Positions 3,114-51,047 of a stretch of 53,594 nucleotides of DNA are shown here, one piece after another. Every line of letters starts with the position of its first letter. The stretch's first letter is position 1. Origin of the DNA: a virus; the IMG/VR virus record IMGVR_UViG_3300044617_000068, positions 1 through 53,594 of that record. One strand, written 5' to 3'. A program made the translations under genes and the position numbers. The notes below the pieces were generated by a model. The model was given only the letters and a program-made list of their open reading frames with translations, was not told the origin of the DNA and searched no databases.

Positions 3114-3806
3114 TTAAGGCTCTTTCTGTAAACTATATGTCTTGGCTAGCATAGACCCGAAAAACATATGTAGTAATGTCAATGTGCTTTCGTCATTGTA
3201 GTCTACATAATAAGAACTATGCAGATAGTTGTACCAAATTCTATGAGTCACGGTCTCATTTACCATGCGCTTCAATGCCGGGCAAATTCGTGCTACATTA
3301 TCATATCTTTCTATGAAAGACTTGATCTCATCCTTGAATCCGTCAGGTACTTTCTTACCCCTGAAAAAAGTCCTATACTTAAATGACGGTTCCTTTTTGA
3401 AATAGATGACATTATTTCCCATTACATCTGCTATGGAAATCTCTAAATTATCATCCAGAATATCTAAAGATTTTAACAATTCTAAGTCATCACTAAAGAA
3501 ACTAATATTATTACCCTGTATTCGTACCATATATTGGTCTTTAGGGGCCGAGCCACGCCAATCGAAATATCGACTTATCTGATCATAATCGATCAAGTCG
3601 ATACGCCTGTTCCAATCAGATGAAATCACTTCTATATAATTAGGAGGTCTTTCTGCCCGCTTGGCCATCTTGGTCTTAAATTCATCTATAGTTTTAGTAT
3701 AGTATGTGTATACTGCACCATGAATTTTACACCTGGCTCGGTATTGATACTTACCGAAAAATAGTGCGTTTCGTTTTTCAGTTACTAACTTCAATGATTC
3801 CATCAT
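3114..3806 (-). CDS. Conserved unknown protein downstream of clpA
   Basis: A 230-residue basic protein with many Tyr, Phe and Arg residues, beginning MMESLKLVTEKRNALFFGKY. The alternative second ATG at 3803 is equally plausible, because AGGGG lies just ahead of both. The start overlaps the 3' end of clpA by 29 bases, so translation is probably coupled. No Walker, nuclease or transmembrane motif was seen. Proteins with a similar N-terminus occur, from memory, in other aquatic T4-like phages without known function. The N-terminal LVTE could also be read as a prohead-protease site, but the overlap with an early-type gene argues against a head role. Confidence 0.7.
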   Translation of the reverse strand: MMESLKLVTEKRNALFFGKYQYRARCKIHGAVYTYYTKTIDEFKTKMAKRAERPPNYIEVISSDWNRRIDLIDYDQISRYFDWRGSAPKDQYMVRIQGNNISFFSDDLELLKSLDILDDNLEISIADVMGNNVIYFKKEPSFKYRTFFRGKKVPDGFKDEIKSFIERYDNVARICPALKRMVNETVTHRIWYNYLHSSYYVDYNDESTLTLLHMFFGSMLAKTYSLQKEP

Positions 3807-6045
3807 CCCCTACTTTCGCCGTTACTTTGTTATTGACAATAAATTCGATATTGTCGTTCACAAGGTTCGCGGTAATGTTGGCATTATTGATTCTTTCAAA
3901 TAGAATCTTTTTACTCAACGGAACACGAATCAACTCATCGATCTTGCGAGCCAACGGTCTAGCACCCATCTTACCATCATATCCCTTCTCAGCCAGATAT
4001 TCGATTACTGGTTCGCTGAGATTCAATGTGATATTATGTTTATCGACCAAGGAAGTTTTTAGTTCATTGGCAAACTTGACAACAATTTTCTTGATCGAAA
4101 GGATGTCCAACTTCTTGAACTTACAAACTTTGTCAAGACGATTTCTAAACTCGGGCTTGAAGAAGTCCTTGAATGCCTTGTCATCTTCACCAGTCTTTTG
4201 CATGTCACCGAAACCGATGTTGTTGCGCTCATTGTCTGCGCTACCGAGGTTACTAGTAAGAATGATGATACAGTTTTTGCAACTAACTTCCTTACCATTG
4301 CTACCAGTGATACGACCTTCATCAAGGATCTGCAAGAAGATATTGAAGATATCTGGATGAGCCTTCTCAACTTCGTCAAACAACAAGATAGCGTGTGGGT
4401 TCTTGCTCAAGTCACTGATCAAGCGTCCACCTTGTACTTGGCTGTCACCGAAACCAACATAGCCTGGTGGAGGTCCGATCAATGCGCTGACAGTATGCTT
4501 CTCGCTATATTCGCTCATATCATATTTGAGCAATGGCATATCAAGATTATTGCTCAACAACTTAGCCAGTTCAGTCTTACCTGTGCCAGTTGGGCCCAAG
4601 AACAAGAAACTTGCTAGTGGCTTAGTCTCGCTATTGATACCTGCAAAACTGACATAGATACGATCTAATACGCTACCGACGGCTTCGTCCTGACCATACA
4701 ACTTATCCTTGACATTGCTTTCAAGATTATTGATGCGATCAAAGTTATCACCGCTCAATTTGTCAGCAGGCACACCAGTATACTTCTCGACCTGTTCAAA
4801 GATCAATTGCTTAGTGATCTCGACATCCTTATTCTCAAGCACACGCTGTTTAGCACAGGCTGCGTCAAGCAAGTCGATGCTCTTGTCAGGATTCTTGCGA
4901 TCATGGATATAACGGCTCGCATTCTCCACCGCGGCTTCGATAGCCTCATCTGTGATCTTGACACTATGGAAGTCATTCAATCGTTCGCTCAAGCCGCGCA
5001 AGATACGAATAGTTGTATCGTTTGTAGGCTCATCGACAGTTACTTTGAAGAATCTACGCATCAATGCACGATCCTTCTCAAAACTCTCATAGAAGTCTTC
5101 CCATGTAGTGCTTGCGATTACCTTGATATTGCCCTTAGTGATAGCAGGCTTGATCATGTTAGCAAAGTCTACGCTACCGTTGCTACTGCTGCCGGCGCTT
5201 TGCATCATATGTGCTTCATCGATGAAGAGGATAGATTTCTTCTTAGTGCTTAATGCTTCAAGCACATTCTTGACCTTCTCTTCAAAGTCGCCGCGATATC
5301 GTGATCCAGCAAGCAAACTGCCAATCTCAAGGCTGTATAGATCATAACCTTGCAAGAAGTTAGGTACTTCTTCATGGATGATGGCTCTAGCGATACCCTC
5401 AACGATAGCAGTCTTACCAACGCCTGGATCACCGACAAGCAAGACATTGCTCTTGAAACGCTTTGCCAAGACATTGATGATATCATCGATCTCTTTATGA
5501 CGACCGATCAATGGTTCTAGTTTATCTTCACGGGCCAATTGCGTGAGATTGATAGTGTATTCTTCAAGGATCTCATCAGCCTGGCTTTCATTGAGTGCTG
5601 TAGCACTCTGACCGCCCTTGTAGTTCTTTTGCCAGTGTGGGAAGAATTCATTTTTAGTCACGCCGTATTTCAACAAGAAATAATGAGCATGACTATTGGC
5701 TTCAGCAACGATGCTCAAATATAAGTCAATCGTAGTTAACTGCCTACGACCAGTGAATAGAACCTGCGTCACGCTACGGTTCAATACACGCTCAATACTG
5801 TTAGTCTTTTTAGGAACTGTGTTTGGATTTTTGCTTTCGATAGCATGAAGGCTGGCAACATATGCCTTGACTTCATCGACCATCATATCAGTATCTACGC
5901 CAAAACTACTTAGACACTTTTTAAAGGGTGTATAAGTGATCAATGCATAGAGCAAATGCTCTGTGGTAACATATTCGTGGTTATGTTCTTTAGCATAAGC
6001 GATTGCTTGCTCAATGATGTTTTCGATTTCTGGTGAATTTTGCAT
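3778..6045 (-). CDS. clpA: ClpA-type AAA+ unfoldase
   Basis: The 755-residue protein unfolds substrates and feeds them to a ClpP peptidase. An N-terminal Clp_N-like domain (1-145) is followed by AAA module 1 with Walker A GDPGVGKT (205-212), Walker B ILFIDEAH (272-279) and pore tyrosine Y250. AAA module 2 has Walker A GPTGTGKT (484-491), Walker B FDEVEKAH (556-563) and pore loop GYVG. There is no coiled-coil middle domain, so it is ClpA-like rather than ClpB/ClpC. The ClpP-docking tripeptide is present as IGF (610-612) in the expected loop before FxPEFRNRLD. Phages rarely bring their own ClpP, so a host ClpP is the likely partner. A late box at 6064 and GAGAGG ribosome site precede it; dnaJ lies directly upstream. 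Confidence 0.95.
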   Translation of the reverse strand: MQNSPEIENIIEQAIAYAKEHNHEYVTTEHLLYALITYTPFKKCLSSFGVDTDMMVDEVKAYVASLHAIESKNPNTVPKKTNSIERVLNRSVTQVLFTGRRQLTTIDLYLSIVAEANSHAHYFLLKYGVTKNEFFPHWQKNYKGGQSATALNESQADEILEEYTINLTQLAREDKLEPLIGRHKEIDDIINVLAKRFKSNVLLVGDPGVGKTAIVEGIARAIIHEEVPNFLQGYDLYSLEIGSLLAGSRYRGDFEEKVKNVLEALSTKKKSILFIDEAHMMQSAGSSSNGSVDFANMIKPAITKGNIKVIASTTWEDFYESFEKDRALMRRFFKVTVDEPTNDTTIRILRGLSERLNDFHSVKITDEAIEAAVENASRYIHDRKNPDKSIDLLDAACAKQRVLENKDVEITKQLIFEQVEKYTGVPADKLSGDNFDRINNLESNVKDKLYGQDEAVGSVLDRIYVSFAGINSETKPLASFLFLGPTGTGKTELAKLLSNNLDMPLLKYDMSEYSEKHTVSALIGPPPGYVGFGDSQVQGGRLISDLSKNPHAILLFDEVEKAHPDIFNIFLQILDEGRITGSNGKEVSCKNCIIILTSNLGSADNERNNIGFGDMQKTGEDDKAFKDFFKPEFRNRLDKVCKFKKLDILSIKKIVVKFANELKTSLVDKHNITLNLSEPVIEYLAEKGYDGKMGARPLARKIDELIRVPLSKKILFERINNANITANLVNDNIEFIVNNKVTAKVGDDGIIEVSN

Positions 6046-6063: not shown

Positions 6064-6070
6064 TATTTAT
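6064..6070 (-). promoter_or_regulatory. Late promoter box AATAAATATC overlapping dnaJ stop
   Basis: Minus-strand ATAAATA lies 18 bases before the clpA ATG. The TAA inside the box is also the dnaJ stop codon (6067-6069). Confidence 0.6.
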
Positions 6071-6840
6071 TTTGCACGATTTCGTAAAATACTATCAATA
6101 ATATCTTGATGTATATTATCAGGAATGTATGGTTTTAGCAAGATGTATTGGTCTCCGTGTGCCGTATTATTAATGATCGGCATTCCGTAACCTGCTAATC
6201 TCACGCTCACATATGGTTGCGTTTTAGGTTTTATACTTACATTTAGTTCTTTTCCTGCTATAGTTTTAAAAATAAAATCGGTACCGGCTAATAGATCCAA
6301 TACACTAATGCTTTGGTTACAGTATAAATCATGACCCCTGCGCTCGAACCTAAGATCGGGCATGATATTGAATGTAGCGACTAAAACACCATTGTTGATG
6401 ACATTATCGAATCGTAATTGGTCACCTTGATTTACCCCTTTGGGTACTGTGATATCGATTATCTTTTTCCCATTCATCAGATTGAGTTCAAGCATTTTGT
6501 TCGTACCGTTGTATGCATCTAACAAACTGATATCGATCTGCGTCCTATACATCTGTTTGTGCATACTTCTAGGACCATGGTGACTGCCAAATATCTGACT
6601 GAATACATCATTGATATTGACTCCGCCGAAATCTTGAAATTGAAAAGGTTGTGCAGGGTTGTCGTATTGTCTGCGCTTTTCTATATCGCCCAATACATCA
6701 TATGCACTTTGTATTTCTTGGAATTTAGCCTTATCTCCGCCCTTGTCAGGGTGATGCTGACTTGCTAATTTACGATAGGCTTTTTTGATTTCGTCAGTAG
6801 TTGCAGTTTTAGCAACACCCAACGTCGCATAATGATCCAT
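6067..6840 (-). CDS. dnaJ: DnaJ-like J-domain co-chaperone
   Basis: A 257-residue J-domain protein. The J-domain spans residues 1-62 with the HPD tripeptide at 30-32 (SQHHPDKGGD), which stimulates Hsp70 ATPase. It is followed by a short linker and two DnaJ C-terminal beta-domains. The zinc-finger (four CxxCxGxG) of canonical DnaJ is absent and the Gly/Phe region is short, so it resembles CbpA/class-B J-proteins, somewhat shorter than the usual 300. The predicted partner is host DnaK, since no Hsp70 is seen here. It lies directly upstream of clpA, so an Hsp70-to-Clp hand-off is an attractive inference. The ribosome site is weak (AAAGAATG). Confidence 0.9.
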   Translation of the reverse strand: MDHYATLGVAKTATTDEIKKAYRKLASQHHPDKGGDKAKFQEIQSAYDVLGDIEKRRQYDNPAQPFQFQDFGGVNINDVFSQIFGSHHGPRSMHKQMYRTQIDISLLDAYNGTNKMLELNLMNGKKIIDITVPKGVNQGDQLRFDNVINNGVLVATFNIMPDLRFERRGHDLYCNQSISVLDLLAGTDFIFKTIAGKELNVSIKPKTQPYVSVRLAGYGMPIINNTAHGDQYILLKPYIPDNIHQDIIDSILRNRAK

Positions 6841-9952: not shown

Positions 9953-10876
9953 TCAAGAAGTGATTTCGATTAAAGTAGCAGCCAGACAAATCTCGGGGAT
10001 TCCTACAAGTGGAAGATTGGCTAGACCATTACGAATGTGAATGATCGCTGTATCTTTCGCTTGCGGCGTGTTACCCCAAAGATCAAGATTGTCATACATC
10101 CACTTGTATACATCTTCGACCCTAGTAGGATATGTGCTGATGTACTCCATCAATACTTGTCTACCATTCGATACATCTCCACTCTTGAAATGTTCAACTG
10201 CTTTAAGCAAAAGTGCGTCTTCGCTACTTGCTTCATTGCTAGGACGAGTCAACGAGCCTGTGATGCTATTAGCCTGCAATTGATTCAAGCATTTGCGCAA
10301 ATCGGGATATGTAGCACGAACATAGAGATCCAACACTTCGAGGTCGAACTCAATATTCTCAGTAACAAGTACCGTCGCGGCTCTTGCTGTGAATTCAGTC
10401 ATATCAGTCTTAGCGATATGGAACTCATGGCATCGTGACTTTAGTGCAGGAATGATCTTGTGACGATAGTTACAAGTGAGGATATAGCGCACTGTCATGT
10501 GATACGCTTCCATATCATTTCTCAAGGCGGCTTGCGCCGGAGGTGTTAAGTAGTCCGCTTCGTCTAACAGCACTACCTTGAACTTGCCGAAAGGCATAGT
10601 CTGCACAAAACTGTTGATCTTCTCTCTGAGCATATCGATACCATTCTCACGGCTTGCGTTGATCTCAAGCACATCAAAATCTTCGATATTCAATTCGTTG
10701 ATCAATACTTTAGCAAGAGTGGTCTTACCTGTACCAGGATCACCACTCAGCAATAAATGCGGGATACTTTCTTCTTTGATCCAGTGTTGTACTGTCTGTC
10801 GTTGATTATTATCGACAAACACATATTCTTCGACCTTACTAGGTCTATATGCTTCTACCCAAAGTTTGTTTTTCAT
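9953..10876 (-). CDS. g44: Sliding-clamp loader large subunit (T4 gp44-like)
   Basis: A 307-residue AAA+ ATPase of the clamp-loader/RFC small-subunit type, which opens the gp45-like sliding clamp onto primed DNA. Visible motifs are Walker A GDPGTGKT (45-52), Walker B LLDEAD (103-108) and the SRC arginine-finger motif (147-149). The length matches T4 gp44 (about 320). No gp62 or gp45 partner lies in this window. The start overlaps the stop of the BI-1/YccA gene by four bases (ATGA), so expression is coupled to it. Confidence 0.92.
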   Translation of the reverse strand: MKNKLWVEAYRPSKVEEYVFVDNNQRQTVQHWIKEESIPHLLLSGDPGTGKTTLAKVLINELNIEDFDVLEINASRENGIDMLREKINSFVQTMPFGKFKVVLLDEADYLTPPAQAALRNDMEAYHMTVRYILTCNYRHKIIPALKSRCHEFHIAKTDMTEFTARAATVLVTENIEFDLEVLDLYVRATYPDLRKCLNQLQANSITGSLTRPSNEASSEDALLLKAVEHFKSGDVSNGRQVLMEYISTYPTRVEDVYKWMYDNLDLWGNTPQAKDTAIIHIRNGLANLPLVGIPEICLAATLIEITS

Positions 10877-11556
10877 TCTTTTCTATCACCAAAAAGTTGT
10901 AGTAACGATAAGAATATATTAATGAAATTCAAGTATAATGTCAATGCACCCTGGACTTCCTCGACATGATCGCTACTAGAACTGGTAACAATCTCTCTGA
11001 TACGCTGTGTATCATATGCGGTCAAGCCCAAGAAAATAACGATAGCCAAAGCACTGATAACCATCTGAAACACTGTGCTACCCACAAAGATGTTGATTAT
11101 ACTAGCAATTATGATAGCGATCAGTCCCACGAACATAAATTGTCCAATGCTCGTCAAGTCTTTCTTTGTGAAATACCCATAGAAACTCATAGTGCCGAAA
11201 AGCACAGCCGCCCCCATGAATGCGCTCACGATGCTACCCATCTGATATACAGCAAATATAGTGGCGAAACTCAAGCCCATCAATGCCGCAAATCCATGCA
11301 ATAATAGCTGTGCCATTCCTGCACTAGGTCTAGCGTTCAATACGATTGTGACTGCGAATACCGCCGCTAATGGGGCAAAGATCACGATCCACTTAATGAA
11401 CCCTGTAAAAAAGAATTGTAGCAGTTCTGGGCTTGTTCCAACCAAATAACTTACGATCATAGATGTAAGCACGGCTAAGCCCATGTGCTGATAAACTTTT
11501 GCCATAGCGAGGTTTATCTCGCTAGCACTTTTATATGGATGAGATATTGTATACAT
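10873..11556 (-). CDS. BI-1/YccA-family multi-pass membrane protein
   Basis: A 227-residue integral membrane protein with about seven hydrophobic segments (near 22-40, 53-74, 82-104, 107-128, 136-157, 161-180, 201-222). The family signature is visible as LGLTAYDTQRIRE (D182) before the last helix and ALTLYLNFINIFLSLLQLFG in it. Members include human Bax inhibitor-1, calcium-leak channel YetJ, and E. coli YccA, which binds and inhibits the FtsH protease. The second conserved Asp of BI-1/YetJ appears replaced by N210, which favours a YccA-like member. It lies between groES and the clamp loader, with an AAGGA ribosome site. Inhibition of host FtsH during infection is an inference. Confidence 0.88.
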   Translation of the reverse strand: MYTISHPYKSASEINLAMAKVYQHMGLAVLTSMIVSYLVGTSPELLQFFFTGFIKWIVIFAPLAAVFAVTIVLNARPSAGMAQLLLHGFAALMGLSFATIFAVYQMGSIVSAFMGAAVLFGTMSFYGYFTKKDLTSIGQFMFVGLIAIIIASIINIFVGSTVFQMVISALAIVIFLGLTAYDTQRIREIVTSSSSDHVEEVQGALTLYLNFINIFLSLLQLFGDRKE

Positions 11557-11559
11557 ATA

Positions 11560-11913
11560 TTATTCCTTATCACTCATTGTATAGTCATCGACCTTTTCAT
11601 CACTTACCAACAACACATCATTCGGGTCAACTTTACGAATGATCTGTTCTCCCTCAGTATCCTCGATCTTGATACCGCGAGTCCATCTACCATGAGCGAT
11701 CATGATATACTGTCCTACCTTCACATCTTTCTGTTCAGGACCAACAGCATATACCTTGCCCCATCGTGGTCTAATGCCTACACTCTTAGTGTCATCGTTA
11801 CGGAGTATGATGCCACCTTGACTCAATCTTTCTCCGAAATACATCTCTGACACTATGATCGTGTCATTGAGTGGTTTCAAACTGTTTACTTTATATGCAT
11901 TGATATTTGCCAT
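11560..11913 (-). CDS. g31: GroES / gp31-like co-chaperonin
   Basis: A 117-residue GroES-fold protein. The N-terminal KPLNDTIIVSE matches the GroES opening strand (RPLxDRVIV). The mobile loop that contacts GroEL lies near residues 25-48 (FGERLSQGGIILRNDD), and KVYAVGPE plus VKVGQYIMI match the conserved VxAVGxG and VKVGDxVLF segments. The C-terminus is slightly longer than bacterial GroES (97). T4 gp31 replaces GroES for folding the major capsid protein; the same role is likely here. It is preceded by the disordered 118-aa gene and followed by the BI-1/YccA gene in one unit. Confidence 0.88.
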   Translation of the reverse strand: MANINAYKVNSLKPLNDTIIVSEMYFGERLSQGGIILRNDDTKSVGIRPRWGKVYAVGPEQKDVKVGQYIMIAHGRWTRGIKIEDTEGEQIIRKVDPNDVLLVSDEKVDDYTMSDKE

Positions 11914-11914
11914 A

Positions 11915-12271
11915 TTATTTCTTAGTTTCCTTTGCTTTGATCTTTTCTACTTCTAAATCATCTAATGTAAATGAATCTAATTCTACTTCTTCTTTGGTCA
12001 ATGCTGGATGTGCGTTAGTAGCAGGTTGTGTATTAACAGGAGTCGTAGCAGGCTGCTTATTTTTTTGAGGCTGCGCGGATCTGTTGCCTACTGTAGCCTG
12101 ATATTGTTGTCCTACTTTTTGTGTCACTGGTACAACGACCTTGCCACTACTATCGATGGTATCACCTCTAGCATTGGCTTTCATGTTTCCTACAGCGCGG
12201 ACACGCTCATTTTTGGCTGCTAATGCTGCCATATCTACTACTTTACCCTGTGCTGAACGATATTGTTTCAT
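11915..12271 (-). CDS. Disordered basic protein (118 aa)
   Basis: A 118-residue protein opening MKQYRSAQGKVVDMAALAAK, followed by a low-complexity Gln/Pro/Thr/Asn region (70-95) and an acidic-then-basic C-terminal helix. It is expected to be largely unfolded alone. From memory, the same N-terminus recurs in aquatic T4-like phages without a known role. A GAGGAG ribosome site lies six bases before the ATG and a late box at 12323 inside the upstream gene. Head or tail association is possible but not shown. Confidence 0.72.
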   Translation of the reverse strand: MKQYRSAQGKVVDMAALAAKNERVRAVGNMKANARGDTIDSSGKVVVPVTQKVGQQYQATVGNRSAQPQKNKQPATTPVNTQPATNAHPALTKEEVELDSFTLDDLEVEKIKAKETKK

Positions 12272-12281
12272 TTTTAACTCC

Positions 12282-12788
12282 TCACTTTATAAATTCGTCA
12301 ATAGACAAATCATAATAAAGACTATTTATTTTGTGGATGCCTATCAAATACAAAACGAAACTGCTTACACTTGATCCACGACCCACGCCCCAAACTATGT
12401 TATTTGTTCGCATGACATCAACGAGGTATTTCATATAGCGCAATAGATCAAACATATCACGCTCTTGGAACAATAATAACTCTTCACCTACCCGTTGTAG
12501 TTCTTCTTCTGTTTTACATAGATCAAGTACATATTTGGCTATGTCTAGTTCTTTGTATTCAGATGGCATATGCCAATTATTTTGATTGGCAATATCAAAA
12601 CTTTCTACAGATAGATTGGGTTCTATATACCCTACGATATCAGGCTTGTTTGATATATCCAAATTGTCAGAAAAATGTATACTAGTTTCTGACAAGACAC
12701 GGTTCAAGGCCTTTTCAGGATCGTTTAGGTAGATGTTGCAGAGATCATCTTCGCTAAGTATTACTTGACCATATATATCAGTACGCAT
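12282..12788 (-). CDS. DnaE-like fragment with GRGS motif
   Basis: A 168-residue protein from ATG 12788 (MRTDIYGQVILSEDD); the open frame extends to a TTG at 12839 and other TTG codons, and no start has a strong ribosome site. Its C-terminal half matches one segment of bacterial DNA polymerase III alpha: IVWGVGRGSSVSSFVLYL parallels the GRGSAAGSLVAYxLGI motif, and continues into INSLYYDLSIDEFIK like the PLxYxLxFERFLN that follows. The catalytic aspartates (PDxDxDF), the PHP domain and the fingers are all absent, so it cannot polymerise alone. It may bind nucleotide or DNA. It forms a tight unit with the next two upstream genes. Confidence 0.75.
   Translation of the reverse strand: MRTDIYGQVILSEDDLCNIYLNDPEKALNRVLSETSIHFSDNLDISNKPDIVGYIEPNLSVESFDIANQNNWHMPSEYKELDIAKYVLDLCKTEEELQRVGEELLLFQERDMFDLLRYMKYLVDVMRTNNIVWGVGRGSSVSSFVLYLIGIHKINSLYYDLSIDEFIK
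12323..12329 (-). promoter_or_regulatory. Late promoter box AATAAATAG inside DnaE-like gene
   Basis: Minus-strand ATAAATA lies 52 bases before the ATG at 12271, within the 3' end of the DnaE-like gene. The distance is compatible with a leader for the 118-aa gene. Confidence 0.45.
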
Positions 12789-12802
12789 CGTATCATGATA
12801 TA

Positions 12803-13351
12803 CTAAGTTTCTTCCCAAGTCAATCCTAAGTCTTCCCAACTATCAAACTTATGGTCAAATAAGTTGACGATCTTATCCTTTTTACTGAACTTGTCAGCCA
12901 TTACGAGGGTGGGTTCGTTGTACCAATGTTTACCATCAAATTCTAATTTGGCTACTTCATGATATAATTCAAATTTAATGAGGTTGCTTAGTTTGCTACC
13001 AAACAATATCTCATTCATCACTATCTTGCCTTCCATGATAGCATTGCACTTATTCAATAATATCATGCCTATGATCTGATCATATGGTTCTTCTGGGATA
13101 GTGCAGACTTTGATGCCTGCATTGTTGTATTTGTTTATTGCTTCTTTTTCTTCTATAGAGATGAACATGCAATCTTCTACTACTGATCCTAGAAAATGAG
13201 TTACGCGCTCTACTGCTATATTCTGTTCTCTAGTATCTTCTGTATAGATTTCCATCTTGGTATCCATCTCATACAAATTGACCATGAACTTTTCGTCAAA
13301 ATGTATGGCTGATAGGAAAGTGAAACTTTTTTGTATTCTGCTGTGAGACAT
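12803..13351 (-). CDS. Unknown partner of DnaE-like fragment
   Basis: The 182-residue product from ATG 13351 (MSHSRIQKSFTFL) is alpha/beta and slightly acidic. The frame runs on to 13384, but this would overlap the upstream gene. A GTAAATA box ends five bases before the ATG, so the message may be leaderless. No motif was recognised; the pattern IGMILLNKCNAIMEG...MNEILFGSKLSN could be a nucleotide-binding alpha/beta core but lacks a P-loop. It ends 14 bases before the DnaE-like ATG. Confidence 0.65.
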   Translation of the reverse strand: MSHSRIQKSFTFLSAIHFDEKFMVNLYEMDTKMEIYTEDTREQNIAVERVTHFLGSVVEDCMFISIEEKEAINKYNNAGIKVCTIPEEPYDQIIGMILLNKCNAIMEGKIVMNEILFGSKLSNLIKFELYHEVAKLEFDGKHWYNEPTLVMADKFSKKDKIVNLFDHKFDSWEDLGLTWEET

Positions 13352-34408: not shown

Positions 34409-34762
34409 ATGGCCAACATCAGACCCATATGTAAAGAGTGTAACAAGAACTACCGTGCTGTGAATTATATCCGTGACGGTGTTACGCATTACCGTAGCAT
34501 ATGTGATGATTGCGGCAAGAAGAAACCTAAGGCTAAATCTAAAAGAACATTATGGGAAAAGGCAGGTTATAAGAAAAAACCTGTATGTGACATATGCGGA
34601 TTTAGGTCACTATATCCAAGTCAAATGACCGTGTTCCATATAGACGGAGACCTCAGAAATACTAACTTTAGCAATCTAAGGTCTATATGTCTTAACTGTG
34701 TCGAGGTCGTCAAACGCAAAGAGGTGACTTGGAAGCGCGGTGATTTACAAGTTGATTATTGA
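34409..34762 (+). CDS. Zinc-binding HNH-like protein (117 aa)
   Basis: A 117-residue basic protein with three Cys pairs: CKECNK (10-13 region), CDDCGK and CDICGF, and a final CLNC. The segment FHIDGDLRNTNFSNLRSICLNC follows the HNH pattern (His, Asp, Asn, then NLxxxCxxC) of phage endonucleases such as T4 endonuclease VII or homing HNH enzymes. A zinc ribbon precedes it. It could be a resolvase-type nuclease or a DNA-binding protein; catalysis is not certain because the first HNH histidine is within FHID. Its 3' end overlaps gp1 by 18 bases in the convergent direction. Confidence 0.7.
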   Translation: MANIRPICKECNKNYRAVNYIRDGVTHYRSICDDCGKKKPKAKSKRTLWEKAGYKKKPVCDICGFRSLYPSQMTVFHIDGDLRNTNFSNLRSICLNCVEVVKRKEVTWKRGDLQVDY

Positions 34763-43755: not shown

Positions 43756-43762
43756 TATTTAT
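43756..43762 (-). promoter_or_regulatory. Late promoter box overlapping subtilisin stop
   Basis: Minus-strand TGATAAATAC lies 19 bases before ATG 43737. The TGA of the protease gene (43762-43764) overlaps the first base of the ATAAATA box. Confidence 0.6.
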
Positions 43763-45732
43763 CAAACTATCCTAAAGGATAGCCCACCGCTCATAGTGTA
43801 TGTCCCTGAAAGAGTTCCGGTAGTGTTTGAATCTAAATTATATAATACTCGTCTAGTACCACCCATAAGACTATTTAAGTCTGCCCAATCTGCGCTCATA
43901 GCAGTAGAAGGGTCGGGTCCTTGATAGAATGTAGTTGCTTGTTGTAAAGGTACTGTTTGTAACCATGTTCTTATATCGGACCAAGTCCATGAACGGTTAC
44001 TCTGAAGTTTCGTTGCTATCAAACCGGCTGCTACCGGACAGGCTGCGCTAGTACCACTAAAACTACAGTCAGTAGAAGTAAGGTACCCTGTTATTTGATC
44101 ATATCTAGAATATGCACTATAATTTTTATTTGATGACATGGTACCGTCAGCAGGTGTATAACAGTCTATCTGCTCACCCATATCGCTGTAGTTTACCTTG
44201 CGTTCTTTGCCATCTGGTTGATAGTTATCATCTAAAGCACCTATATTGATAGCAGGATAAACGACATTGCTTCCTGAGATATATTGTCCTATCTGCTGAG
44301 GGAATCCCCTACGATTAGTAGTGTTATAGCAGGTACTACCAAATTCATCATGCACTGCACTACTCAGTGGTGTGGCTGCTGAATTAGACCAATAATTATT
44401 GTAATCTGTTTGATCACTACCTACCTGTTTTTGATTGCTATTTCCTGCCGCCGCTATAAAAATAACTCCAGCAGATATTAATTCGTCACCGGCAGTAGTT
44501 AAACTATTTGTGAGCATCTCACCTTTGCATCGTCCTGCATCACCGGTCGAACCTATATAACGCATGAATTCTGGTTTAGTACCTGAATAAGCAACACCGC
44601 CTGTTCCCGTAGTGCCTTGTCTAAAATAGTAGTATCCAGTAGAAGGAGTAGTGTCTCTGAATCCCCAACTGTTACTAGTGATAGTAGGATCTTTTGTGCC
44701 GAATAGCGGATTGACAGGTTTAGTCTGATGGAATATCTTGACCACATCAAAATAATTGTCTATAGGCCATAATCCATTGTTACCATATGCGTTCACAAAC
44801 CACTTGTTAGCATTGTATGCCCATCCAAATGTTCTACCATATGCTAATCCTGCACATGCAGTACCGTGTGTACCGTCTACTGATTGAGTAGTATTATTAC
44901 CATTACAATTTGCCCTATTATAATAAGATGGAATGGCTACAGTACCTGCGCTAGCGAAAGTTGATGATCGTGCGCTACTATTGCTCCACCATTCTCTAGC
45001 AACTGCTTCAACGGGTACAGTTGTGCCATCCCAGCGAGTAGTCAATCTTGTTCCTGGGCTAGCATTGAACCATGCAGGATCGATATAATAAGGACCCTCT
45101 AATACGACATCAAGTAAATCACAAGTGCCACTACCGGGTAATTTATTACCGCCTACATAGTCAGTGGGGCTATATGCTGAAGTCCAACTAGCACTTCTAT
45201 TAAATTCTACATGTCCGAACCAACAACCATCATCACCTACTATGATGTCTATGTTAGTGCCTGTATTAGTTGTATTAGGAATCGTGCTATCAAAAACAGT
45301 AGTAGAGGCTACTCCGTACCATGGACTAGCATATTGATTACATCGTAATAACTGATAGCCCGATCTGTTTAATTCTGCTGATGTTGCTGGATTAGGTAAT
45401 CCTGTGCTAACAAAGTTATTATAGCATTTTGCGTTTGCGCTATACCTAGGAGTGTTGTATAAATCTTCAGGTGCGGGACGAGGTGTTTCCGGATAATTAG
45501 CAACATTTATCTCAATAAATTTTATGTCTGGATGATTACTAAGTTGAGCGGCTTCTTCATCGGTCATCAAGTATACTGCTCTGGTAGGACTATGTTCTTT
45601 TAAGTCAGTGCATTCTATTTGTCTGCTAGGAATATTATCTTCTAAAGTGCCATCGGCAGTGAGTACTGCATGAACTCTGTTCCATGCCTCTTCTGTAGTA
45701 GTGCCTATGACATAGTATTTTTGTTCGCTCAT
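43762..45732 (-). CDS. Subtilisin-family (S8) serine protease
   Basis: A 656-residue subtilase with the complete catalytic set: D167 (VGDDGCW), H289 (DGTHGTACAG), oxyanion N431 (IFIAAAGNSN) and S562 (FSGTSAACP). Residues 1-80 look like an I9-type propeptide, so self-activation is expected. There is no signal peptide; the protease is more likely virion-borne than secreted. The Asp-to-His interval (122 residues) is longer than usual. It is the last gene of an overlapping unit with the fiber and fiber-C-domain genes (ATGA overlap at 45729-45732), which suggests a role on the fiber, in surface-protein degradation or fiber maturation. Confidence 0.92.
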   Translation of the reverse strand: MSEQKYYVIGTTTEEAWNRVHAVLTADGTLEDNIPSRQIECTDLKEHSPTRAVYLMTDEEAAQLSNHPDIKFIEINVANYPETPRPAPEDLYNTPRYSANAKCYNNFVSTGLPNPATSAELNRSGYQLLRCNQYASPWYGVASTTVFDSTIPNTTNTGTNIDIIVGDDGCWFGHVEFNRSASWTSAYSPTDYVGGNKLPGSGTCDLLDVVLEGPYYIDPAWFNASPGTRLTTRWDGTTVPVEAVAREWWSNSSARSSTFASAGTVAIPSYYNRANCNGNNTTQSVDGTHGTACAGLAYGRTFGWAYNANKWFVNAYGNNGLWPIDNYFDVVKIFHQTKPVNPLFGTKDPTITSNSWGFRDTTPSTGYYYFRQGTTGTGGVAYSGTKPEFMRYIGSTGDAGRCKGEMLTNSLTTAGDELISAGVIFIAAAGNSNQKQVGSDQTDYNNYWSNSAATPLSSAVHDEFGSTCYNTTNRRGFPQQIGQYISGSNVVYPAINIGALDDNYQPDGKERKVNYSDMGEQIDCYTPADGTMSSNKNYSAYSRYDQITGYLTSTDCSFSGTSAACPVAAGLIATKLQSNRSWTWSDIRTWLQTVPLQQATTFYQGPDPSTAMSADWADLNSLMGGTRRVLYNLDSNTTGTLSGTYTMSGGLSFRIV

Positions 45733-48261: not shown

Positions 48262-48978
48262 TCATATGAACTGCTTATAGTATTGTTCGATTCTCTCGTA
48301 CCATAGGTTCGTATATTTGTCAAATTCCGAGCCTTCTACGATGAATTCTTGATATTGATTATCTGCTGAACACATGAATACTACACCCTTGCGTATCTTA
48401 GTGCCCCATACTTCATTGTGTGCTAGTGCATAGGCTGCTAATTGCAGGAAGTAGTCATCGATCCATTCACGCTTTTTAGGCTTATTTGTCTGCTTATGAT
48501 CCATGATGGTTTCGACATTATCATGTATGCCCACGAGGTCTGTGGTTCCTGCATAGACTTCAGGAAAGTATAGACTGACCTCTGTACCCCAGAATTCCTG
48601 ACATTTGCTCAAGCCCTGTTCAATGATAGTCTGCGCCATCTGATGGCTTTGTATGCTATAAGGATTAGTGCCCGGTTGCCCTGCATTACCAGTCTTTACA
48701 TGATTCTCAAGCCACTTGTGCATACGAGTGCCGCGACCCGCTGCCTCTGTCGTGATCTGTTTAGCCTTCTCTTCGCCTACTCTTTTGCGCCATTCTTGTA
48801 ATGCTTTTTTCTTTTCTTCTGGCTTAGTAGCGTCAAGGATAGTAGTCACGCTGGGAACAGCATGACCATCTGGAGTCATGTACTTGCGTGACCCGTTGAT
48901 TGTTTCGCGTTTTAGTTCTGCGTAGGGGAACTTATTAGGTAAGTAAATCAAACTGTAAAACTCTCGCCACAACCGCAT
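48262..48978 (-). CDS. RecB-like PD-(D/E)xK nuclease
   Basis: A nuclease of up to 238 residues. Motifs are GRGTRMHKWLE (H87), GTTDLVG (D147) and ETIMDHKQTNK (D160, K162), the classic RecB/AddB-type arrangement, with QLAAYALA (Q-x-x-x-Y) after them. It likely processes DNA ends during recombination or host degradation. The listed ATG overlaps the Fe-S carrier gene by 31 bases; a TTG at 48951 (overlapping the carrier's TGA, GAGAG nine bases ahead) is a good alternative start. RecB-family nucleases sometimes carry a 4Fe-4S cluster, but the Cys cluster is not seen here. Confidence 0.85.
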   Translation of the reverse strand: MRLWREFYSLIYLPNKFPYAELKRETINGSRKYMTPDGHAVPSVTTILDATKPEEKKKALQEWRKRVGEEKAKQITTEAAGRGTRMHKWLENHVKTGNAGQPGTNPYSIQSHQMAQTIIEQGLSKCQEFWGTEVSLYFPEVYAGTTDLVGIHDNVETIMDHKQTNKPKKREWIDDYFLQLAAYALAHNEVWGTKIRKGVVFMCSADNQYQEFIVEGSEFDKYTNLWYERIEQYYKQFI

Positions 48979-49268
48979 CTAGCAGTCTCATTAGGATTGA
49001 TGAAATCAAATCTCTCATTTAATCCCTGCTTTATATAATCTATGGTCAAACCGTCTAAGTATGGATGTGCGTCTTTTGTCACCCATACATATAGGTTATC
49101 ATGTATAGATAACAAATCCTGTTCTCTATTCTCGTCGGCAAATTCGATCTTATAAGAATAACCGTTACAACCTGTCTTAGATATTCCCAATCTTATGCCT
49201 AACCCGCTTCCTCTTTGCTTAATTTGCTCAAGAAATCTATTCTTGGCAGTATCGGTTAGTTTAATCAT
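48948..49268 (-). CDS. iscA: A-type Fe-S carrier (IscA/ErpA-like)
   Basis: A 106-residue HesB/IscA-family protein. The three cluster-binding cysteines are C34 (GCNGYSY), C98 and C100 (RCGCGESF), in the expected CxnCxC arrangement, and the length is standard. Family members pass Fe-S clusters to target enzymes. Phage-borne copies occur in cyanophages and pelagiphages; the recipient is unknown. A sigma-70 promoter ends seven bases before the ATG, so the mRNA should be leaderless. The nuclease gene overlaps its 3' end, so they form one unit. Confidence 0.93.
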   Translation of the reverse strand: MIKLTDTAKNRFLEQIKQRGSGLGIRLGISKTGCNGYSYKIEFADENREQDLLSIHDNLYVWVTKDAHPYLDGLTIDYIKQGLNERFDFINPNETARCGCGESFTV

Positions 49269-49314: not shown

Positions 49315-50241
49315 TTACATGAATCTAAATTTAAAACCTTTATTCATGAGATAGCGATTTATCTGCATGATATGTTGTGGGCCACACAATTCTAAGAATT
49401 TACGATGAAACCCGAATACTGAAATCTCATCTTTGTTGATGACACTATCAGGATCTTCGAATGCCGATGCATCGGCAATCAATGGTGCATCCTCATGGAA
49501 GTTTTCAAAGAAATAAGTGTGAGATATCACGGGTTGATCCTTCAACATAGTATTCACACCTGGCTTGATCTTATCATTTACTGCTAAACTATAGAATAAG
49601 AATTCGCTAGGATTGGCTATGTTCTTATCAACATCCCAATATAATAGTTCCTGGAAAAATTTATCCAAATCTACCCGTTCATTTAACAGATTGTAATCTA
49701 TCTTAAATGGTGTTCTAGGACCTAAGAAATATTTAGGCATCTCTGTCATACCTAATCTATCCATGTAGACATTGACAGTTCCCTGCCAATATTTGCTATG
49801 CAAAGGTGTCGCTAAGAAAGGTTCTTCATTAACTTCTTCAGAATCTTCGTCATCTTTCACTAATTTTTCTAGATAACCAGAACCAATAAAATCGTCATAA
49901 GTTGACATCTTGAAAGGTTGAACGAAAAAGTTTTTAGCGTCAAGCAATAGATAATCTTTTTGCACCAATCTTGAAACAAGCATCTTTAATACTTGCTGTG
50001 TAGCATGTCCGGACAACTCATCCATTCGTTCATCGTCTATTAGAAACCTTCTAGGAATCACATACAGTGTATGATGTTTATAGTAAGGTTTTAGTATGTC
50101 ATGCCAAGCATGTACATCTACATCTTTCTCATTTACTATCACCCAATGTGTGCATGGTTCCATAAAATTCAAGACACTTTCTGCTTGCAATACCATCAAG
50201 TGTCTTTCTATGTTACATGTTATAGTTACTAAGTCTGTCAT
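49315..50241 (-). CDS. Glycosyltransferase-like (DUF6492-type) protein
   Basis: A 308-residue protein from ATG 50241, which overlaps the TGA of the upstream gene (ATGA). The pattern TDLVTITCNIERH at the start, VIPRRFLID, and KDYLLLDAKNFFVQPF resembles DUF6492-type sugar-transferase-like proteins, where LLLDAKN would correspond to the DxD-like site. The C-terminal half contains aromatic-rich loops. It shares a unit with an SGNH-hydrolase-like gene. The donor and acceptor are unknown, and family membership comes only from the motif layout. Confidence 0.7.
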   Translation of the reverse strand: MTDLVTITCNIERHLMVLQAESVLNFMEPCTHWVIVNEKDVDVHAWHDILKPYYKHHTLYVIPRRFLIDDERMDELSGHATQQVLKMLVSRLVQKDYLLLDAKNFFVQPFKMSTYDDFIGSGYLEKLVKDDEDSEEVNEEPFLATPLHSKYWQGTVNVYMDRLGMTEMPKYFLGPRTPFKIDYNLLNERVDLDKFFQELLYWDVDKNIANPSEFLFYSLAVNDKIKPGVNTMLKDQPVISHTYFFENFHEDAPLIADASAFEDPDSVINKDEISVFGFHRKFLELCGPQHIMQINRYLMNKGFKFRFM

Positions 50242-51047
50242 ATATTCCAACGCTCTCTCATTATTTTTTGATACATATCGGCTAGATATATCTGCCCTTC
50301 TAGATTAGTATGATATCCGGGATCACTATCCGCCTCTGTAGCATAATCACCGAATTTAAATTCAGGCTTGTCATGTGTAGCGCATGGGCAATATGCAAGG
50401 TCAGTAGTGTAATATTTCTCATCTAACAATGGCATCCTCTCACCGCCGTTCCAAAGTGCTAGTGTAGGTATTAGTATGAAAGGTATATTGTTTTTAACTA
50501 ATTCTAAACAGCCTTGTTCAATCATCCATTGATCTTGCTGTTTCTTCCAATTACTATCATATAGATGTGACACATAATCTTGAACAGCCTTTTGTGCTTC
50601 ATCACTTATCTGTAAAGTCTTTCTATAAGGATGATGCCAATTGTGTACTAGACTATTATAATTCTCGCATATCAATGTTGGATTACTATTGTTTTTGTGA
50701 TTGATATTATCATAGCCTCGTGAAGGATCATATTGTGAAGGTTTTCTAGTGAGTAAGTCTAATGTATGCCATATTACCTTAGTCCAATCTAACTTCAATG
50801 TATTGATAGGAATCTCAGTCCTATCAAAAAATGAAGGTATGATTATAGCAAAATCAGGCTTTTGTTTGATGACTTCTTGTATCTGTAGTCTCACTCCGCC
50901 GTTACTGCACCCAGAATATGCGAGGTTCGACAAATCCCAATCTAATCGTTTGGCTAGTATCTCACTAAAGTGAGTGCCAAAATATTCTTCTTTGAGTGTA
51001 GTGGCAGAAAAACTGCATCCACACACCATCAATTTCTTTCTAGTCAT
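50238..51047 (-). CDS. SGNH/GDSL-hydrolase-like protein
   Basis: A 269-residue protein. The N-terminal LMVCGCSFSATT fits the GxSxS block I (S12 as nucleophile), NLAYSGCSNGGVR could supply block II Gly and block III Asn, and DPGYHTNLEGQIYLADMYQ near the C-terminus fits the DxxH block V. Such enzymes act as esterases or acetyl-hydrolases on carbohydrates. The overlap with the glycosyltransferase-like gene suggests joint action on glycan. A TTAAATA box ends five bases before the ATG and no ribosome site is visible. Confidence 0.75.
   Translation of the reverse strand: MTRKKLMVCGCSFSATTLKEEYFGTHFSEILAKRLDWDLSNLAYSGCSNGGVRLQIQEVIKQKPDFAIIIPSFFDRTEIPINTLKLDWTKVIWHTLDLLTRKPSQYDPSRGYDNINHKNNSNPTLICENYNSLVHNWHHPYRKTLQISDEAQKAVQDYVSHLYDSNWKKQQDQWMIEQGCLELVKNNIPFILIPTLALWNGGERMPLLDEKYYTTDLAYCPCATHDKPEFKFGDYATEADSDPGYHTNLEGQIYLADMYQKIMRERWNI

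Follow-up and report, generated by a model that had tools for sequence, protein, structure and literature searches.

Among the described members of the BI-1/TMBIM family, Bacillus subtilis YetJ is a pH-sensitive Ca2+ leak whose channel, in the account of it given in PMC4416878, is held closed by two aspartates; a Ca2+ role of YetJ is also cited in PMC7876416. Ion conduction has been reported for the viral protein GAAP and human BI-1 (PMC4416878) and for TMBIM5, a distant human homologue (PMC9379554). The alphaproteobacterial homologue of Brucella supports viability and membrane and envelope homeostasis, and changes in HflK/C follow its deletion (PMC7876416). In the published surveys that we found, viral BI-1 is listed only for herpesviruses, poxviruses and further viruses of eukaryotes (PMC3271019, PMC6163359). 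No publication on a phage BI-1 came up in a search of the open literature.

Here we describe a BI-1 gene in a 53.6-kb record classed as a virus, the whole 53,594 nucleotides of which are referred to as the window. Comparison with its relatives indicates that the window is probably part of a larger genome. The family to which the gene belongs is known, whereas its phage branch appears to be undescribed. Virus-borne TMBIM proteins are otherwise represented by the herpesvirus US12 family, BI-1-like proteins of giant viruses and poxvirus vGAAP. In a fold search of BFVD with the window protein, the named confident matches came from eukaryotic viruses (two of the eight matches carried no name) and included the herpesvirus and giant-virus members, which differ from the phage protein in their hosts and are only 14-24% identical to it in the fold-search alignments.

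The window encodes a BI-1-fold protein

The open reading frame begins with an ATG at 11556, shortly downstream of a ribosome-binding-like AAGGA motif, and runs to 10873; the plus strand across this interval is full of stops. Its product matched the Pfam family Bax1-I (PF01027) at 3.4e-54, scoring 184 bits against a curated cut-off of 34.1. The AlphaFold (AF2) model had a pLDDT of 92.8, and every match at E<=0.001 in a Foldseek search of the PDB was a structure of YetJ (BsYetJ). The product is a bona fide BI-1/TMBIM-fold protein, as the first-pass annotation had proposed from the letters of the sequence: the seven hydrophobic segments that it listed reappear as seven long helices in the predicted structure, and both of the family signatures that it named are present, AYDTQRI at residues 180-186 and LYLNFINIFLSLL at residues 207-219.

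The gene is kept by purifying selection, with a dN/dS of 0.06-0.14 against four close relatives, and the protein must therefore serve the phage in some way. Its GC content and GC3 match those of the neighboring GroES and clamp-loader genes (Table 1).

TABLE 1 Annotated features of the window
Feature	Position	Strand	Evidence and remarks
ClpA-like AAA+ unfoldase	3778-6045	-	Pfam AAA_2/ClpB_D2-small; phrog_4871
DnaJ	6067-6840	-	Pfam DnaJ/DnaJ_C
gp44-like clamp-loader ATPase	9953-10876	-	phrog_168 1.2e-74; directly downstream of BI-1
BI-1/TMBIM family membrane protein	10873-11556	-	227 aa; seven TM helices; D182 present; N210
GroES-like co-chaperonin	11560-11913	-	Pfam Cpn10 9.9e-07; phrog_931 2.9e-13; phrog_3188; directly upstream of BI-1, 3-nt gap
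Conserved 118-aa protein, operon member	11915-12271	-	phrog_14844; synteny conserved
Short stand-alone DNA polymerase III alpha-like protein, operon member	12282-12839	-	phrog_11127; 185 aa
Small HNH endonuclease, possibly a homing endonuclease	34409-34762	+	Opposite strand, inside the tail gene block
Subtilase-family peptidase	43762-45732	-	PF00082 2.3e-16; phrog_9158
IscA-like iron-sulfur protein	48948-49268	-	
DUF6492 protein	49315-50250	-	1.2e-05

Operon and genome neighborhood

The location beside GroES and within a phage operon, which had also been noted at first pass, is evident from the short gap that separates BI-1 from the end of the Cpn10 gene. At the other end, the ATG of the clamp-loader gene overlaps the BI-1 stop codon as ATGA. 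Given this overlap and the 3-nt gap, GroES, BI-1 and the clamp loader look co-translated.

The clamp loader of the window is 50.8% identical to that of the Pseudomonas jumbo phage PA5oct; its next relatives belong to Agrobacterium phage Atu_ph07 and to phages of Sinorhizobium, Pelagibacter, Salicola and Vibrio. PA5oct and its relatives share with the window the order GroES, clamp loader, PhoH, DnaJ, ClpA. Unlike the window, PA5oct is without BI-1, its GroES and clamp-loader genes being immediate neighbors. In Atu_ph07 this site is taken by a 60-aa ORF.

The match of the polymerase-like operon member to DNA polymerase III alpha is confined to a short stretch (PF07733 positions 20-94). The protein is kept near GroES and the clamp loader, and Atu_ph07 carries a short gene annotated as a DNA polymerase in the corresponding place.

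Distribution among phages

A scan of IMG/VR with the window BI-1 returned 206 relatives, 80 of which (~65-96% identity) were kept; at least 63 distinct phage BI-1 sequences were obtained. They occur in several contexts: inserted directly between GroES and the clamp loader; ahead of the clamp loader but preceded by a 100-aa gene; flanked by IscU (NifU_N 6.6e-53) and IscA (Fe-S_biosyn 4.1e-17); and following a MazG-like gene, near a DNA ligase. Further contexts exist. Homologues of IscU and IscA flank BI-1 in seven relatives (L018, L029, L044, L061, L062, L078 and L080; families checked in L018, 152-1523). The gene for the conserved ~100-aa protein (L021 9684-9998 and relatives; family unassigned) often separates GroES from BI-1 or from the clamp loader, and it occurs also without BI-1. 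The notion of a universal neighboring partner gene was rejected, as none of the three recurrent upstream genes (for the 100-aa protein, the MazG-like protein and IscU) is found in all loci.

BI-1 occupied the site between GroES and the clamp loader in 21 of the 80 loci with a close clamp loader and was absent from it in the other 59, and is thus optional there. Where it is directly inserted, GroES and the clamp loader lie ~680 nt (681) apart, whereas at the empty site the distance is often ~34 nt, or the two genes overlap. The stretch between these two genes resembles a hot spot for insertions. More generally, BI-1 is an optional gene in the replication and chaperone operons of T4-like jumbo phages. 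A single gene that either occupies one operon site or is missing from it offers a simple system for studying the role of BI-1 in bacteria, where it is poorly understood.

Contigs with BI-1 reached 357 kb, and ten of them carried T4-like terminases, mutually 55-92% identical. The BI-1 and terminase trees of these ten phages conflict (AU p 1.4e-4 and 9.5e-6), and a tree shared by both genes was rejected in either direction (p < 2e-4), although the terminase itself may have moved. The conflict fits movement of BI-1 between phages. The terminase match regions of two contigs contained in-frame stops: one TGA and two TAG in L263 (the terminase of the contig of L079), and one TGA, five TAG and four TAA in L266 (the terminase of the contig of L060). 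They perhaps reflect an intron-like interruption, or the match may simply have overrun the end of the gene.

A PHROG search with the window BI-1 gave a match at chance level only (0.072). Nine matches in INPHARED (MT835812.1, OR846624.1, PQ520055.1 and others), all of them 31-46% identical, were rejected as members of the phage family. The one record of these that was read, MT835812, is marked UNVERIFIED and carries a BI-1 of cellular type, probably host contamination.

Origin of the phage clade and its relation to YccA

In a maximum-likelihood tree of 136 proteins, the 48 phage rows formed a single clade (support 100/99) on a stem of 0.84 changes per site. The clade falls on the side of the BI-1 type found in Alphaproteobacteria and in genomes of the phyla to which a Cytophagales and a Desulfovibrio genome belong; a 100/99 branch separates it from E. 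coli YccA. Sequence identity agrees with the alphaproteobacterial placement: the window protein is 25% identical to YccA, whereas the nearest cellular proteins among the matches listed are alphaproteobacterial and 41-50% identical. These proteins (Brucella BrBI; nearest listed, those of Cucumibacter, Rhodospirillales and Pelagibacteraceae) share the family and the AYDTQ and LYLDFIN motifs with the phage protein. They differ in having the usual R, K and A where all 63 phage sequences have N15, R187 and E200, residues rare in cells, and the phage clade has its own long stem. No cellular copy of the phage clade was found among the best cellular matches listed. On these data phage BI-1 is a virus-only clade, and the tree fits one origin, from a cellular BI-1 that most resembles the alphaproteobacterial type.

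The YccA type favored in the first-pass annotation did not emerge from this tree. An AU test with the phage proteins and YccA as one side did not reject that grouping (p 0.389), and since YetJ and a few of the outgroup rows have long branches, the point at which the phage clade attaches is only approximate. YccA was the best NCBIfam match of the window protein, a weak one (1.8e-11; 44.2 bits against an equivalog cut-off of 353). The two proteins belong to one family and have N-terminal tails of close length. With 21 residues before the conserved Tyr in the window protein and 24 in YccA, a shortened tail of the YccA11 kind found no support.

The aspartate dyad

YetJ shares with the window protein the fold (TM-score 0.67-0.75) and the first aspartate of the dyad, at ~30% identity over 184 residues. 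Its diaspartyl pair, D171/D195, corresponds to D182/N210 in the window protein, so that the pair is incomplete; the alignment with BsYetJ agrees with the earlier observation that Asn replaces the second Asp. D182 was found in all 63 phage proteins. Position 210 was Asp in 44 of them and Asn in 19, compared with 122 and 24, respectively, in cellular proteins, and on a thinned tree it changed at least 9 times within the phage clade and 17 times overall. In E. coli YccA the dyad positions are occupied by Glu and Ser. N210 is therefore a recurrent natural variant, and its reading as a YccA signature, as put forward at first pass, is ruled out.

In viral GAAP, the equivalent substitution, D219N, raised conductance from 29 to 79 pS without altering the reversal potential, and anti-apoptotic activity was lost (PMC4416878). 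The latch Arg of YetJ (alignment column 76) is not strictly conserved. With this residue variable and the second Asp missing in 19 of the 63, including the window protein, gating by pH in the manner of YetJ is doubtful.

Possible functions

Our best guess, which we put forward tentatively and by analogy with the described members, is that the phage protein lets cations (Ca2+/H+) leak across the inner membrane of the host and is cytoprotective in infection; we favor this role over modulation of FtsH and over a block of host suicide or control of lysis timing. BI-1 would be made together with the clamp loader, insert into the host inner membrane and leak or exchange cations (Ca2+/H+) around the conserved D182. 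The leak would adjust membrane potential and ion balance so that the infected cell stays viable, as BI-1 does in bacteria and poxviruses. Asn210 would remove half of the diaspartyl latch, leaving the channel less pH-gated and more conductive. On a wider view, which is conceivable and which we hold with some doubt, this virus-only clade, gained a single time and moving between jumbo T4-like phages, may be the phage counterpart of poxviral and herpesviral BI-1, an ion-leak protein that keeps the bacterium alive or blocks membrane-based suicide. The wide spread of the phage branch means that bacterial viruses, too, acquired this cytoprotective membrane family. Its presence in related uncultured phages suggests that BI-1 serves phages, and not animal viruses alone, in controlling the membrane of the cell that they infect.

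As a counterpoint to an ion leak, the neighboring GroES, DnaJ and ClpA genes could equally suggest a role in proteostasis, though PA5oct has them without BI-1. At first pass, protection of phage membrane or regulatory proteins from host FtsH had been proposed; in this reading BI-1 would inhibit the membrane AAA protease FtsH of the host, or serve it as a decoy substrate, and so shield phage or host membrane proteins. FtsH-family proteases are reported to be inhibited by E. coli YccA and, in the case of AFG3L2, by human TMBIM5 (PMC9379554), and such inhibition may be an ancestral or general property of the family. The phage carries its own GroES, DnaJ and ClpA-like unfoldase, YccA is the best NCBIfam match, and the AU test tolerates a grouping with YccA. 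The low identity to YccA, a score far below the equivalog cut-off, the well-supported branch between the two and the failure of N210 as a YccA feature nevertheless make this reading unlikely, if still the main rival. No FtsH gene was found in 44 virus records with BI-1, mostly fragments, though the target would be the host's enzyme.

Less probable still, again by analogy, is that BI-1 blocks a suicide response of the host, such as a membrane-permeabilizing abortive-infection effector, or tunes the timing of lysis, much as BI-1 counteracts Bax-type death. An optional accessory gene that apparently moves horizontally among otherwise syntenic phages would suit such a role, and eukaryotic viral relatives are anti-apoptotic (PMC4416878). 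However, no defense or lysis gene was consistently adjacent in the loci compared, and the Asp lost here is the one essential for anti-apoptotic activity in GAAP (PMC4416878).

Host contamination or a functionless passenger in a misassembled contig, of which the cellular-type gene in MT835812 looks like at least one case in the phage databases, has a negligible chance of applying to the window: it is refuted by the syntenic recurrence of the gene in many independent contigs, ten of them with a phage terminase, and is contradicted by the ATGA overlap within a phage operon, the virus-only clade and the low dN/dS.
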